Shown piece after piece: positions 7,803 to 42,800 of a DNA stretch of 64,000 nucleotides. The notes beneath the pieces were generated by a model. It saw only the letters and a program-made list of their open reading frames with translations, did no database searches and was not told the origin of the DNA. The DNA is from Niveispirillum irakense DSM 11586 (GTDB taxonomy: Bacteria > Pseudomonadota > Alphaproteobacteria > Azospirillales > Azospirillaceae), in assembly GCF_000429645.1 (NCBI RefSeq), contig NZ_KE386934.1:434001-498000 (forward strand). The letters run 5' to 3'. The number at the start of each line of letters is the position of its first letter. Position 1 is the first letter of the stretch. The position numbers and the translations under genes were made by a program.

Positions 7803-8546
7803 TTATGAATAACGCCGGATCAAACCGATCAACCTGCCCTGCACATTGACCCGGTCCGACCCGAAAACCCGGGTTTCGTAGGAGGGATTGGCCGGCTCCA
7901 AAGCGATAGAGTTTCCCTTGCGACGCAGACGCTTCAGGGTCACTTCCTGCCCGTCGACAAGGGCCACGACGATGGTCCCATTTTCCGCCGTCTCACAGCG
8001 CTGGATCACCACGGTGTCACCATCCAGGATGCCCGCTTCGATCATGCTGTCACCGGCCACCTCAAGCGCATAATGATCGCCGGCGGCCAACATGCTGACC
8101 GGTACATCAATACTGGCGCTGTGGTCGCGCAAAGCCTCAATCGGCAAACCGGCAGCGATACGGCCATAAAGCGGCAGCGAAACCGCCTCCACATCATTAC
8201 TGGCCGCACGGCCCGGCAGGGCGCCCCGAAAATCACCCCGAATGACATTGGGCTTGAAACGGGCGGCGTCGGGCGGCGGCATATCGGACGGGGGGGCCGG
8301 CGTTGCGGCCTTGGTCGCACGGGGCGCCGGCTTTTCCGGCAGGCGCAGCACTTCCAGCGCCCGGGCGCGGTGCGGAAGACGCCGGATGAAGCCACGCTCC
8401 TCCAGGCCCGTGATCAGCCGATGGATGCCGGATTTAGACTTCAAGCCCAGCGCATCCTTCATCTCGTCGAAAGAGGGTGAAACACCACCATCATTCAGCT
8501 TCTCATTGATGAAGATCAGCAATTCCTGTTGCTTGCGCGTCAGCAT
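7803..8546 (-). CDS. lexA: LexA repressor, SOS regulator
   Basis: Represses SOS genes until RecA-stimulated self-cleavage. The N-terminal winged helix-turn-helix is present ([40 protein letters not shown]). After a proline-rich linker comes the S24 protease domain, with the catalytic serine in [12 protein letters not shown] and the lysine in [10 protein letters not shown]. At 247 residues it is longer than E. coli LexA because of the linker, which is usual in alphaproteobacteria. The promoter has two LexA boxes (8609-8623 and 8635-8649), so autoregulation is expected. Confidence 0.97.
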
Positions 8547-8600
8547 CTTCTTCCTCGCCCTTTCATCCCGCCCGGCACCGCCCTGGTTCCAGCACCCGCA

Positions 8601-8628
8601 ACTATATAGAACAATCCCGGAACGTCAA
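8601..8628 (-). promoter_or_regulatory. lexA promoter
   Basis: On the minus strand TTGACG (8628-8623) and TATAGT (8606-8601) are separated by 16 nt. The proximal LexA box fills almost the whole spacer, so bound repressor would exclude RNA polymerase. Confidence 0.65.
8609..8623 (-). promoter_or_regulatory. LexA box (proximal)
   Basis: GTTCCGGGATTGTTC on the minus strand is an exact match to the alphaproteobacterial direct-repeat SOS box GTTC-N7-GTTC. It lies 63-77 nt upstream of the lexA start codon. Confidence 0.85.
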
Positions 8629-8634
8629 TTAAAT

Positions 8635-8649
8635 GTTCCGCCTTGGTTC
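8635..8649 (+). promoter_or_regulatory. LexA box (distal)
   Basis: GTTCCGCCTTGGTTC on the plus strand is a second exact GTTC-N7-GTTC match, 11 nt beyond the proximal box and in opposite orientation. It could strengthen lexA autorepression or act on plus-strand transcription toward the chemoreceptor gene. The rest of the 334-nt gap 8547-8880 shows no further gene or clear signal apart from AAGGA before the start at 8881. Confidence 0.7.
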
Positions 8650-8880
8650 ACCAATGATCATCGTGTTCGGGCAAGAGGCTGGCGCAGAAGGATGTGATAT
8701 CCCTCCGCATAGTCGACCACCCACCAAGCGATACTTTAAAGTTCGCCATGGACGCCCCGAAACCACAATCTCTCACTTTAAGTAAACAACAATATCCGCA
8801 TCCCCGAAAATACAAATAAATACCCCACCAATAAATCCAACGACTTCAGCACCACCGCCCCGAAACCGAAGGACATCCCC

Positions 8881-10560
8881 ATGTTCAACCTCTTCACCCG
8901 CAGTGTCGAGAAAACGGATCTGGCGTTGATAAATGCCATCAACGCCAGTCAATGCGTTATTGCCTTCGATACCAACCGGCGGGTCATCGAAGTGAATGAC
9001 CTGTTCCTTCAGGCAACGGGTTATCGGCGGGAAGAGGTTCTGGGCCAGCCGCATATGCTGTTCATGGACAAAGAGGAGGCTGGCGGCAGCGCCTACGCCA
9101 CTTTCTGGGGCCGCCTGCTGGCGGGGGAGCCGACGGGAGGGGAATTCCGCCGTCTCGGGCGCGACGGGCGCGAAATCTGGATTCAGGCCACTTATACGCC
9201 CGTCAAGGATGCGAGCGGTCGGGTCACCCGGATTGTAAAGCTGGCCAGCGACATCACAGTCCAGAAGCAGCGCGCCATTGATGTCGCGGGACAATTACAG
9301 GCGTTGAACCGGTCCCAGGCGGTCATCACATTCAATCTCGACGGCACCATCCTGGACGCCAACGATAATTTTCTGAGCGCGGTGGGCTATAGGCGGGAAG
9401 ACATTGTCGGGCGCCATCACCGGATGTTCGTGGCCGAGTCCGAGCGTGAGGGGACTGACTACCGCACGTTCTGGAGCCGGCTGTCCAAAGGGGAGTTCTT
9501 CGACGGCATTTTCAAGCGTATCGCCAAGGATGGACGGGAGATCTATATCCGCGCCACCTATAATCCGATTCTGGATACCCATGGGCGGCCCGTGAAGGTG
9601 GTGAAGTTTGCTGCCGATATTACGGAATTACGGCTCGACATGGCTGACAAGTCCGGCCAGATCGAAGCCATCAACCGCAGCCAAGCGGTCATCGAGTTCG
9701 CCCTGGATGGCACCGTCCTGCGCGCCAATGCCAATTTCCTTGCCCTGATGAACTACCATGAGGAGGAGATCAAAGGGCGCCACCATCGCCTGTTCATGCC
9801 CGCAGAAGAGGTCGATAGCCAGGCCTATCGGGATTTCTGGAAAGCGCTGGCCAGGGGTGAATATCGCACCGGCACGTTCCGCCGGGTGGCAAAGGACGGG
9901 CATGATGTCTGGATCAATGCAAGCTACAACGCCATTTTCGATCCAGACGGCAAGCCCTTCAAGGTGGTGAAATACGCCTCCGACGTCACCCAGAATGTGC
10001 TGGCCCGCAAACGCAGCGAGCATGTCGGCGCCATGCTGGAAAACGTGGCCGCCGGCGCGGAAGAAATGAGCAGCTCTGTGCGGGAGATCGCCACCAGCAT
10101 GGTCCGCTCCCGCGACACGGCGGAGGCGGCCGACCACACGGCAGAATCGGCAACGGGCGCCACCCGGCGGCTGGCCAGCGTTACCGAATCCGTCGGCGGC
10201 ATTGTCAATGTCATCGCCGATATCGCCGGTCAGATCAATCTGCTGGCCCTGAACGCCACCATCGAAAGTGCGCGGGCCGGGGAAGCCGGCAAGGGCTTCG
10301 CCGTTGTGGCAACGGAGGTGAAGAACCTTGCCAATCAGGCCCGCGCCGCAACTGAGCGTATCAATGCGGAAATTGGCGATCTGCGCGGGGCCTCCAGTGA
10401 GGTGGTGGAAGCGCTGACCAGCATCCGGGCCGCTATCGACAATGTGCGCCAATATGTGACCTCCACCGCCGCCGCTGTTGAGGAACAGAGCGCGGTAGCC
10501 GCCGAAATGTCCGGCAGCATGCAGCGCGCCGCCAAGGAAGCCGCGTCAATCGTCGGGTAA
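8881..10560 (+). CDS. Soluble triple-PAS methyl-accepting chemotaxis protein
   Basis: Cytoplasmic chemoreceptor of 559 residues. Three homologous PAS domains (about residues 10-130, 135-255, 260-375) each contain a Y-R/H-E-E/D segment and end in a PAC-like V-K-x-A-S/A-D-I/V-T block. The signalling domain follows, with the hairpin tip [20 protein letters not shown] and helix [19 protein letters not shown]. No transmembrane segment is visible, so it must sense an internal or diffusible signal, perhaps through haem or flavin in a PAS domain (inference). No C-terminal methyltransferase-tether pentapeptide is seen. AAGGA lies 7 nt before the ATG. It interrupts the usual moeA-lexA adjacency. Confidence 0.93.
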
Positions 10561-10583: not shown

Positions 10584-11813
10584 TTACAGCGCATCCAGCG
10601 GCATGATCCGGACCTTTTCCCCCGCCACCACCGGCGGGGCGTGCGGGTCGCGCAGGATCAGGCAGTCGGCCCAGGCCAGCCGGCTTAGCATGCCGCTATC
10701 CTGTTTCGGGAAGGGAGTGGCCACCTCCCTTCCCTGCGCATCGCGGGAAAGCTTGGCGCGGATGAAATCCGCCCGGCTGTCATTCCTCCCCAAATTCCCG
10801 CCCAATATTACTTCCCGCGTCTCATCCGCCGTCGGCAGCCCCTGCATGCCCAACAGCAGCGGGCGCAGGAACAGCCAGGCACAGACCAGGGCGGAGACCG
10901 GGTTGCCCGGCAGGCCCAGCATGGGCACACCCTTGATGCGACCAAACATCAGGGGCTTGCCGGGCCGCATGGCGATTTTCCAGAAATCCAGCTCCAGCCC
11001 GGCATGGCCCAGCACGGAGCGCACCAGATCATGCTCCCCCACCGACGCGCCGCCGATCGTCACCAGCAGGTCGGTACCGCTGGCAGCAGCAGCCAGTTCC
11101 GCCAGACTGTCGCGGTTATCCCCGGCAATGCCCAGATCCACCGCCTCCCCGCCCAACTGGCGCACCAGGGCGCAGAGTGCCAGGGAATTGGAGCTGACAA
11201 TCTGCCCCGGCGCCAGCGTGTCGCCGGGCATCACCACCTCATCCCCCGTGGCGAGGATGGAAACGCGGGGGCGACGGCGAACCTTCAGCCAGGGCACATT
11301 CATGGAAGCCGCCAGCGCCAGATCGCGCACGGTCAGCCGCCGCCCCGCCGGCACGCCGACATCGCCAATGCTGAAATCCTGCCCCGCCGGCCGTATCCAG
11401 CGCCCCGGCCCGCTGCCATCTTTCAAGGTGACGGTGGCGCCGTGATCGTCTGCATCCTCCTGCACCACCACCGTATCGGCCCCATCGGGCAAGGCCCCGC
11501 CGGTGAAAATCCGCACCGCCTGCCCCGGCCCCACCCCGCCGGCAAAGGGCCGGCCCGCCGGCGCCTCGCCGATGCGGGCCAGCGTGACGGGGAAACTGGC
11601 GATGTCCGCCGTGCGCACGGCCCAGCCATCCATGGCCGAAACAGCCGTCGGCGGATGTGTAACCCGCGCCACCACATCCGCCGCCAGCACCCGGCCCAGC
11701 CCCTGGGTCAAGGGCACCTGTTCCGCCGGCAGCGGTTGGATATTGGCCAGGATACGGGCGCGGGCTTCGGAAAGGGGGATCAAGCGGGGGCTCCGTGAGT
11801 CAGGTCGGACCAA
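10584..11813 (-). CDS. moeA: Molybdopterin molybdenumtransferase
   Basis: Inserts molybdate into adenylylated molybdopterin in the last step of molybdenum cofactor synthesis. The protein has 409 residues. Domain III motifs are clear: TGDEVVMPGD, TIGGASVGEHDLV and LPGNPVSALVC, with AMRPGKPLMFG between them. The N-terminal part has AVSAMDGWAVR, the conserved MDG(Y/W)A segment. In related genomes it usually follows moaC; here an SRPBCC/LysR pair lies between them. Confidence 0.96.
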   Translation of the reverse strand: MVRPDSRSPRLIPLSEARARILANIQPLPAEQVPLTQGLGRVLAADVVARVTHPPTAVSAMDGWAVRTADIASFPVTLARIGEAPAGRPFAGGVGPGQAVRIFTGGALPDGADTVVVQEDADDHGATVTLKDGSGPGRWIRPAGQDFSIGDVGVPAGRRLTVRDLALAASMNVPWLKVRRRPRVSILATGDEVVMPGDTLAPGQIVSSNSLALCALVRQLGGEAVDLGIAGDNRDSLAELAAAASGTDLLVTIGGASVGEHDLVRSVLGHAGLELDFWKIAMRPGKPLMFGRIKGVPMLGLPGNPVSALVCAWLFLRPLLLGMQGLPTADETREVILGGNLGRNDSRADFIRAKLSRDAQGREVATPFPKQDSGMLSRLAWADCLILRDPHAPPVVAGEKVRIMPLDAL

Positions 11814-39861: not shown

Positions 39862-42800
39862 TTACAACTCCTGAACCTCCACCACCCCATGGAGGGATTT
39901 GATGGCGGCACGGCCGCTGCCATCAATCTGGAATGTCTTGGGCAGGGAAATCTCCACCTCCCGCAGGGCGTCCATCTCCACCGTGAGCATTACCTTGCCC
40001 CGGCCCGGCGGCAGACGTGACAGGGTGTTCTTGATCCCCTCCACGGCGCGCAGATCATCCACCAGAATGCGCAGGCCGGCCGCACTCTTGGCGACCTCCT
40101 CCTCCAGCAACTGCACGCCCTGGCAGGTCAGGCGGATTTCTTCACCATTGCGCTGGGCGTCTACGGCGACCAGTACAGCCTTACCGGCCTCCAGCATCTC
40201 CCGGCTCTGCGCCAGGGTTTCCTGGAACAGGGTCACCTCATAGACGCCGGTGGCGTCCGATAATGTGACGAAAGCAAAACGGTTACCGCTTTTGGCCGTT
40301 CGTTCCTGACGGGCAACGACGATGCCCGCCATCTTGTAGCGCGTGGATTTGGCGTCGCGCAGGGCCTTGGGCAGGTCAGCGTGCTTGACCACCTTCATCC
40401 GCGTCAAAGCGGGGGAGAAACTGTCCAGCGGGTGGGCCGAGAGGAAGAAGCCGATCGCTTCAAACTCGTGCCGCAGCTTCTCCAACGGCTCCCAATCCGG
40501 CACCTTGGGCAGGTCGGGTGTCTTCAGCGCTTCGGTGGCTCCGAACAGGCTGGCCATGCCGCTTTCCCGTTGCTGCGCCTCCGCCTGGGCGTAGCGCAGC
40601 ACCGTTTCCAGCCCCGCGAATAATTGCTGGCGGTTGCGCGACAGGCTGTCAAAGGCACCGGCGCAGACCAGCTTTTCCATCAGCCGCTTGTTCATCACCG
40701 TGTGATCAACCCGGCGGGCAAAGTCGAACACATCCTTGAACGGCCCGTTGGCGCGGCGCTCAGCCACCACCGACTCCATCGCCTGCGCGCCCACCCCCTT
40801 GATGGCGGCGAGCGCATAGCGCACCGCCCGGCTGCCATCGGGCAGGGTTTCCACGGCAAAACGGGCGGCAGAGGCATTCACGTCCGGTGGCAGCAGCTTG
40901 ATGCGCAGCCGCATCAGTTCCTGGCGGAACTGGTTCAGTTTGTCGGTATTGCCCATATCATAGGTCATGGTCGCCGCCATGAACTCGACCGGGTAATTGG
41001 CCTTCATAAAGGCCGTCTGATACGCCACCAGCGCATAGGCCGCCGCGTGGGATTTATTGAAGCCGTAACCGGCGAATTTATTCACCTGATCGAAGATCAG
41101 ACCGGACTGTTCTTCCGGCACAGCCAGCTTTTCCGCTGAACCAGCGATGAATTTCGCCCGTTCCTTCTCCATCTCCTCCTTGATCTTCTTACCCATGGCG
41201 CGGCGCAGCAGGTCAGCGCCGCCAAGGCTATAGCCCGCCAGCACCTGGGCGATCTGCATCACCTGTTCCTGGTACACCATGATCCCGAAGGTTTCCTCCA
41301 GGATGGGCTGCAAGGCCGGATGCATGTAATCCGGCGCTTCCTGGCCGAACTTCACCTTGATGTATTTGGGGATATTATCCATCGGGCCGGGGCGATAGAG
41401 CGAGACCAGCGCGATAATGTCCTCAATCCGGTTCGGCTTCATGCGGCGCAGCACGTCGCGCATGCCCGAACTTTCAAGCTGGAACACGCCGGAACTCTCT
41501 GCCCGGCCCAGGATATCGTAGGACTTCTTGTCCTCCATATCCAGATCCAGCAGGTCCAGTTCCGGGCCTAGATCCCTCACATGGTCCACCGCCGTTTTCA
41601 ACACGGTCAGCGTCTTCAGGCCCAGAAAGTCGAACTTCACCAGTCCCGCCAGTTCGACATATTTCATGTTGAACTGGGTAACGGGCATGTCGGACCGCGG
41701 ATCGCGGTACATCGGCACCAGTTCATAAAGCGGGCGGTCGCCGATCACCACGCCGGCGGCGTGGGTGGAGGCGTGGCGATACAGCCCTTCCAGCCGCAGC
41801 GCGATGGTCAGCAGGCGGGCCACCGTCTCATCCCCGCGCTGCATCTCCTGCAACTGCGGCTCCCCGTCCAGCGCTTGTTGCAGGGTGACGGGGTTGGCCG
41901 GGTTGTTGGGAATCAGTTTGCAGATACGGTCCACCTGACCATAGGGCATCTGCAACGTACGCCCCACATCGCGCACCACGGCGCGGGCCTGCAATTTACC
42001 AAAGGTGATGATCTGGCCGACCTTGTCGTACCCGTATTTCTGCTGAACATATTTGATCACCTCTTCCCGGCGATCCTGGCAGAAATCGATATCGAAGTCG
42101 GGCATCGACACGCGTTCCGGGTTCAGGAAGCGTTCGAACAGCAGGCCATAACGAATGGGGTCCAGGTCGGTGATCAGCAATGACCAGGCGACCAGCGACC
42201 CGGCACCTGAACCACGGCCCGGCCCCACGGGAATGGCGTGATCCTTGGCCCATTTGATGAAGTCCGACACGATCAGGAAGTAGCCGGGGAATTTCATCTT
42301 GATGATGGTTTCCAGCTCAAAATCCAGCCGGTCCCGGTATTCCTTCTCGATCTTCTCCTTCTCATCCTGCGCCATGCCGCTGGTGAACACATATTTGTTC
42401 AGGCGGTAGGTCAGGCCATCATGGGCCTGCACGCGCAATTCATCCTCTTCCAGCCGCCCGCCCTCACACGGGAAGGGCGGCAGGATGGGGTTCACCTTGC
42501 GCGGCATGTAGGCGCAGCGCTTGGCAATCACCACGGTGTTATCCACCGCCTCCGGTAAGTCGGCGAACAGTTCCCGCATCTCGGCGGCGGTCTTGAAATA
42601 ATGCTGCGGGGTGACGCGGCGGCGATCCTCCTGCATCACATAGGCACCATCGGCGATGCAGAGCAGCACATCGTGCGCCTCATACATGTCCGCCGTGGCG
42701 AAATAGGCATCGTTGGTGGCGACCAGCGGAATGTCGTGGGCATAGGCCAGATCGATCAGATCCGGCTCCACCTTGGCTTCCGCCTGCCCGATCGGCCCTT

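Follow-up and report, generated by a model that had tools for sequence, protein, structure and literature searches.

An inverted pair of LexA boxes at lexA of Niveispirillum irakense, its conservation in alphaproteobacteria, and an apparent change of promoter

The lexA locus and its two boxes

The window, i.e. the whole 64,000-nt stretch of DNA that was analysed, belongs to a genome of 5.45 Mb and contains a lexA gene, a chemoreceptor gene divergent from it, and a moeA-like gene beyond the chemoreceptor gene (Table 1). The whole lexA product was assigned to LexA by TIGR00498 (168.9 bits against a cut-off of 110.95), and both the N-terminal DNA-binding domain (PF01726, 58.1 bits) and the S24 peptidase domain (PF00717, 107.7 bits) were detected. 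Ala-Gly, Ser, and Lys motifs are readable in the translation, which we take to be those of self-cleavage. The start of the gene is preceded, by eye, by AGGAAG. The closest named relatives of lexA among the matches listed were two Niveispirillum records (84 and 85% identity).

Table 1. Genes, LexA boxes, and promoter-like hexamers around lexA (positions in the window)
Feature	Position	Strand	Remarks
lexA, LexA repressor, 247 aa	7803..8546	-	NCBIfam TIGR00498; Pfam LexA_DNA_bind and Peptidase_S24
P2 -10-like hexamer TATAGT	8601..8606	-	promoter scan
Proximal LexA box GTTCCGGGATTGTTC	8609..8623	-	in P2 spacer; exact match; position conserved at lexA
P2 -35-like hexamer TTGACG	8623..8628	-	promoter scan; final G also opens the proximal box
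Distal LexA box GTTCCGCCTTGGTTC	8635..8649	+	exact match; GAACCAAGGCGGAAC on the lexA strand; counterpart of GAACCAAACTAGAAC
Chemoreceptor gene, three PAS domains and MCP signalling domain, divergent	8881..10560	+	beside lexA in 5/116 loci; outside the operator system
moeA-like gene	10584..11813	-	best NCBIfam PRK10680 MoeA, 355.7 bits, below the cut-off of 440; beyond the chemoreceptor gene

A pattern match in the window bore out the two exact GTTC-N7-GTTC boxes of opposite orientation, 11 nt apart (8624-8634), that had been noticed in the initial annotation. Read on the lexA strand, the distal box GAACCAAGGCGGAAC (8649-8635) comes first and is followed, after this spacing, by the proximal box. 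A promoter scan of positions 8500-8900 yielded a single sigma-70-like site (shuffle mean, 0.4), namely TTGACG-16-TATAGT upstream of lexA, which has a 16-nt spacer, matches the consensus at 10 of 12 positions, and is hereafter called P2. One box had been described as filling the spacer between these hexamers; the hexamers do flank the proximal box, but the box does not lie wholly between them, as the G at 8623 also ends the -35 hexamer. This overlap of box and promoter, the latter recognised by its consensus match, is the architecture expected of an autoregulated promoter.

Exact boxes numbered three in the window against 1.24 expected, a count that on its own is weak evidence because three or more were reached in 8 of 100 shuffles. 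The third match (42121-42135, + strand) is probably coding and due to chance, since it is absent from the 60 sites with the lowest coding scores. In addition, GAACCAGGGCGGTGC (8575-8589, - strand), located 3' of the P2 -10 hexamer, agrees by eye with the distal box GAACCAAGGCGGAAC at 12 of 15 positions and is possibly a degenerate third site, or a chance resemblance.

The direct repeat GTTC-N7-GTTC is described as the established box of alphaproteobacterial LexA (PMC9578287, PMC12700426, PMC3323433), and lexA itself is reported to be LexA-regulated in Caulobacter (PMC12700426), as is predicted here for the window. Two LexA operators are also described at lexA of Escherichia coli, where they repress the gene and provide negative feedback (PMC7440846, PMC9210283); unlike the E. 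coli box, which is presented as a palindrome (PMC9578287), the boxes in the window are directional direct repeats that point in opposite ways. The LexA autoregulation described in Caulobacter and Rhodobacter sphaeroides involves the same type of direct-repeat box as that in the window. No description of head-to-head LexA boxes in alphaproteobacteria was found in the literature searched, and an earlier description is likely. At lexA of R. sphaeroides, both GTTCN7GTTC and GAACN7GAAC were reportedly described by Tapias in 2000.

Conservation of the pair at lexA

For comparison, 30 and 17 lexA loci were taken from the 54 of 59 genomes with a match, seven matching genomes being left out for short, split, or weak matches, and the best 80 loci of a further search brought the set to 127. 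Eleven loci whose final 120 upstream bases duplicated those of another locus were then removed, leaving 116 loci (cited by our own L numbers, and genomes by G numbers) in a set weighted towards relatives of the organism of the window. An inverted pair, defined by at most one mismatch in the distal box, at most two in the proximal box, and an offset of 22-29 between the box starts, was present in 104 of the 116 distinct upstream regions, with one mismatch or none overall in 101. The same search returned no pair in the 116 reversed regions or in the first 300 nt of the 116 lexA genes, and a mean of 0.25 per 116 over 20 single-base shuffles. The offset was 25 in 65 pairs, 26 in 20, 24 in 14, 23 in three, and 22 and 28 in one each. 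The distal box has both half-sites complete (eight of eight bases) in 103 of the 104 pairs and a single mismatch in the remaining one. No recognisable pair was found in the other 12 regions (L050, L072, L074, L076, L077, L151, L165, L168, L173, L174, L180, and L187).

When the pair was extended by the TTGAC that precedes it in most relatives (see below), the compound pattern matched 114 of 385 sampled genomes of the class, twice in G413, a count that may include matches away from lexA; no non-zero entry was seen in the reversed control. A looser pair pattern matched 81 of the 82 genomes of the family, with single control matches in two (G003 and G020), and this figure does not reflect lexA alone because the microprotein site described below also matches.

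The inverted pair at lexA is not a chance occurrence. Judging from its distribution, it is old and widely shared, and it is most likely the means by which LexA controls its own gene. That the boxes are LexA boxes in the lexA promoter, as initially annotated, agrees with the LexA family assignment, the two exact matches, the conservation at lexA, and the occurrence of the same motif at recA, ssb, and an imuA-like gene.

A further half-site-like element, GTAC, was observed upstream of lexA in L041, L042, L043, L045, and L055, in an 11-bp register with the distal box; four of these five loci belong to genus g2.

Two predicted promoter arrangements around the pair

In the window, the predicted promoter lies around the proximal box, whereas in most of the relatives sampled the sequence suggests a promoter around the distal box. 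This usual promoter, P1, is taken to combine a -35 element TTGAC(G), whose first base lies 14 nt ahead of the distal box, with the TAGAAC of that box as its -10 element. TTGAC was found upstream of the distal box in 92 of the 104 pairs (exactly at -14 in 82), and in 96 the last six bases of this box are TAGAAC. The common distal-box counterpart in the relatives is GAACCAAACTAGAAC, and an alignment on the distal box of the 58 loci having P1 only and an offset of 25 gave cTTGACg-N8-GAACcAAAcTAGAACAt-N8-GTTt.ggtTTTGTTC. With its -10 element within the distal box, TTGACG-17-TAGAAC could be a reasonable promoter.

The proximal box also differs between the loci. Among the 88 loci with P1 only, it has one mismatch in 87 and two in one, the first half being GTTT in 70 and GTTG in 15, and it is exact in none. 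An exact proximal box was found in 13 loci, i.e. the nine loci of the core Niveispirillum lineage and four relatives (L040, L044, L046, and L047), and the latter four carry the -35 elements of both P1 and P2. The P1 -35 element (TTGAC upstream of the distal box) is missing from the window and eight congeners. At lexA of the window, no P1-like site was found even with two mismatches, and retention of P1 there was rejected on this ground. Three core loci (the window, L038, and L039) have lost the TTGAC upstream of the distal box, carry CGGAAC in place of TAGAAC, and show TTGACG 5 nt before the proximal box. The six remaining core congeners (L032-L037) also lack the upstream TTGAC and have a weak P2 -35 element (TTGGTG, TTGGCG, or CTGGCG), and four of them (L033, L034, L035, and L037) keep TAGAAC in the distal box; only the window and two congeners therefore show a clear P2, and the decay of P1 is incomplete. 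Three more distant loci without TTGAC (L163, L179, and L185) match neither promoter pattern.

A tree built from 41 LexA protein rows grouped the nine core loci in one clade (support, 95/95) and placed the four loci with both -35 elements near it, the order of these branches being weakly supported. The association of the exact proximal box with P2 is thus historical rather than statistical, because it reflects one or two evolutionary origins and not 13 independent ones. A TATAG-like sequence 3' of the proximal box also occurs in some relatives with P1 only, so P2 may be older than proposed. These patterns suggest that the promoter moved from P1 to P2 beneath a fixed operator pair in Niveispirillum, making the lexA locus a traceable case of an apparent promoter move under conserved operators.

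Proposed function of the two boxes

We interpret the two boxes as a single bipartite operator through which LexA represses its own gene, with a hand-off from P1 to P2 in the lineage of the window, and assign this reading a probability of roughly 0.8; autoregulation of lexA is in itself ordinary. LexA bound to the proximal box would cover the spacer between the P2 -35 and -10 hexamers and exclude RNA polymerase, and LexA bound to the distal box, just upstream of the P2 -35 hexamer, would add occupancy and probably stabilise repression. Upon DNA damage, RecA would stimulate the self-cleavage of LexA, and the lexA promoter would open. In the core Niveispirillum lineage, P1 would have decayed and the promoter around the proximal box would have taken over, and this box, previously one mismatch off (mostly with GTTT or GTTG in the first half), would have become exact.

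The distal box might instead be a vestige left after the loss of P1, functionless and kept by descent. The core lineage does lack the P1 -35 element, and the TAGAAC of the distal box now reads CGGAAC in the window; however, all nine core genomes have kept the eight half-site bases of this box while its flanks diverged, and we consider a vestige improbable.

The chemoreceptor gene beside lexA

A bipartite lexA operator leaves to the distal box a role different from that initially annotated, in which the second, oppositely oriented box could extend SOS control to the chemoreceptor gene. The box does read toward that gene, 231 nt from its start, and 5 of the 11 genomes in the genus (L031, L033, L034, L035, and L037) have a chemoreceptor gene running divergently from lexA. 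The gene upstream of lexA is, however, a moeA homologue in the same direction as lexA in 75 of the 116 loci and a chemoreceptor gene in only five, with neither in 36 (the upstream spans examined vary by locus, being mostly 1-2.5 kb and in a few cases as short as 0.5 kb). In the genus, moeA lies immediately upstream of lexA in the other six genomes (L032, L036, L038, L039, L044, and L046), and the box pair is present in all 11. The distal box is thus found at the same place and in the same orientation without a chemoreceptor gene in six congeners and most of the relatives sampled, and across genomes it shows no association with that gene (pair in 104 of 116 loci, chemoreceptor gene in 5 of 116). 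On the chemoreceptor side, the promoter scan found no sigma-70-like site between the boxes and the gene, and in a comparison of the five loci bearing the chemoreceptor gene the invariant bases were concentrated in the boxes, with little conservation outside them. In recognised SOS-type genes of this genome, the exact boxes lie closer to the predicted start (22 nt for the imuA-like gene, 113 nt for ssb, and 127 nt for recA).

Addition of the chemoreceptor gene to the SOS regulon through this box therefore appears very unlikely, and the initial proposal is not upheld. Orientation is a misleading cue at this locus because the distal box at lexA is, as a rule, inverted relative to the gene. Since the six congeners with moeA and no chemoreceptor gene keep both boxes, the distal box is very likely part of the operator of lexA itself and unrelated to the chemoreceptor gene, and it was probably in place before that gene arrived. 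The simplest reading is a lineage-specific insertion that placed the chemoreceptor gene between moeA and lexA when the two boxes were already there; alternatively, the pattern in the genus may have arisen from repeated loss. The chemoreceptor gene may have co-opted the distal box later, an idea that nothing in the sequence favours. A plausible inference, drawn from a LexA box that points at a neighbouring gene, was in this case answered by comparative genomics. Over the PAS part, the lexA-adjacent chemoreceptors of the genus are approximately 53% identical to that of the window.

A second twin box in front of a microprotein gene

A second inverted pair was identified elsewhere in the genome (G000:C1:381532-381574). 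The twin boxes and the microprotein gene behind them together span L006:1501-1677, i.e. G000:C1:381532-381708; the gene is a 31-codon hydrophobic ORF, located 3' of the pair and provided with a GGAGG-type ribosome site. An ORF of 31-32 aa was present downstream of the twin box in all 10 loci first inspected, and a profile was built from eight loci that had been found through their twin boxes. At an E value of 0.01, the profile matched 69 of the 82 genomes of the family; in the class sample it matched 2 of 142 genomes, one being that of the window and the other a member of the same family.

Among the best 30 of the family matches, 29 loci carry the twin box (L292 does not), a share that is partly selected because the profile was seeded from twin-box loci. 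All four half-sites are exact in 28 of these twin boxes, and the offset is 27 in 28 of them and 28 in one. Of the 29, 28 have TTG 5 nt ahead of the proximal box, which is the P2 arrangement found at lexA of the window, and in the putative microprotein promoter, too, the final G of the -35 element belongs to the proximal box as well.

A search with two of the microproteins returned no Pfam family at an E value of 0.001. SidA of Caulobacter crescentus is described as a 29-aa, SOS-induced division inhibitor of the inner membrane (PMC4211646). The microprotein of Azospirillaceae, which is 31-32 aa long, hydrophobic, and encoded behind LexA boxes, is likened to this very short inner-membrane protein by size and predicted control and not by sequence; the profile search of the class gives no link between the two, as its matches are limited to the family of the window. 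By this analogy, the twin-operator microprotein, present in most of the family genomes searched, is a testable candidate for an SOS-induced division inhibitor of Azospirillaceae.

More tentatively, directional boxes placed head to head at a narrow offset of 22-28 bp (mostly 24-27) may be an operator type of its own that works cooperatively; many alphaproteobacteria would employ it at lexA, and Azospirillaceae would have adopted it a second time, for a membrane microprotein under SOS control. The lexA promoter of Niveispirillum would then have shifted from the distal to the proximal box and come to resemble the microprotein promoter. We regard this wider scheme as possible, with odds somewhat against it.

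Exact boxes in the rest of the genome

In total, 113 exact boxes were found in the genome, compared with 71 matches to the reversed pattern. The excess is confined to GTTCR boxes (74 versus 24 reversed), and GTTCY boxes, the type to which both lexA boxes belong, show none (39 versus 47 reversed), a finding that speaks against the proposed reading of the lexA boxes. Of the 113 sites, 32 have a low codon-usage score, and the A+T fraction of the N7 segment is 0.57 in these 32 boxes versus 0.35 in the other 81. Although the reversed matches and the 81 sites without a low coding score would fit a chance occurrence of so short a motif, such an origin of the pair at lexA is refuted by its conservation and by the controls given above, and its probability is negligible.

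The 32 sites include those upstream of recA, ssb, and genes for an ImuA-like protein, a glyoxalase-fold protein, an AlkZ-like protein, RecR, exonuclease III, and a PA0069-type radical SAM protein. The ssb gene is divergent from a YjbR-like gene, and the ImuA-like protein is a partial one that scored 65.9 with the ImuA model, short of the cut-off of 150. The exact boxes near the predicted starts of recA, ssb, and the imuA-like gene are as expected of an alphaproteobacterial SOS regulon, and the sites near recR, the exonuclease III gene, and the radical SAM gene may be due to chance. Two different glyoxalase-like ORFs of the same genome (L244 and L011) are preceded by an exact box at a distance of 37 and 39 nt, respectively, and are possible members of the regulon.
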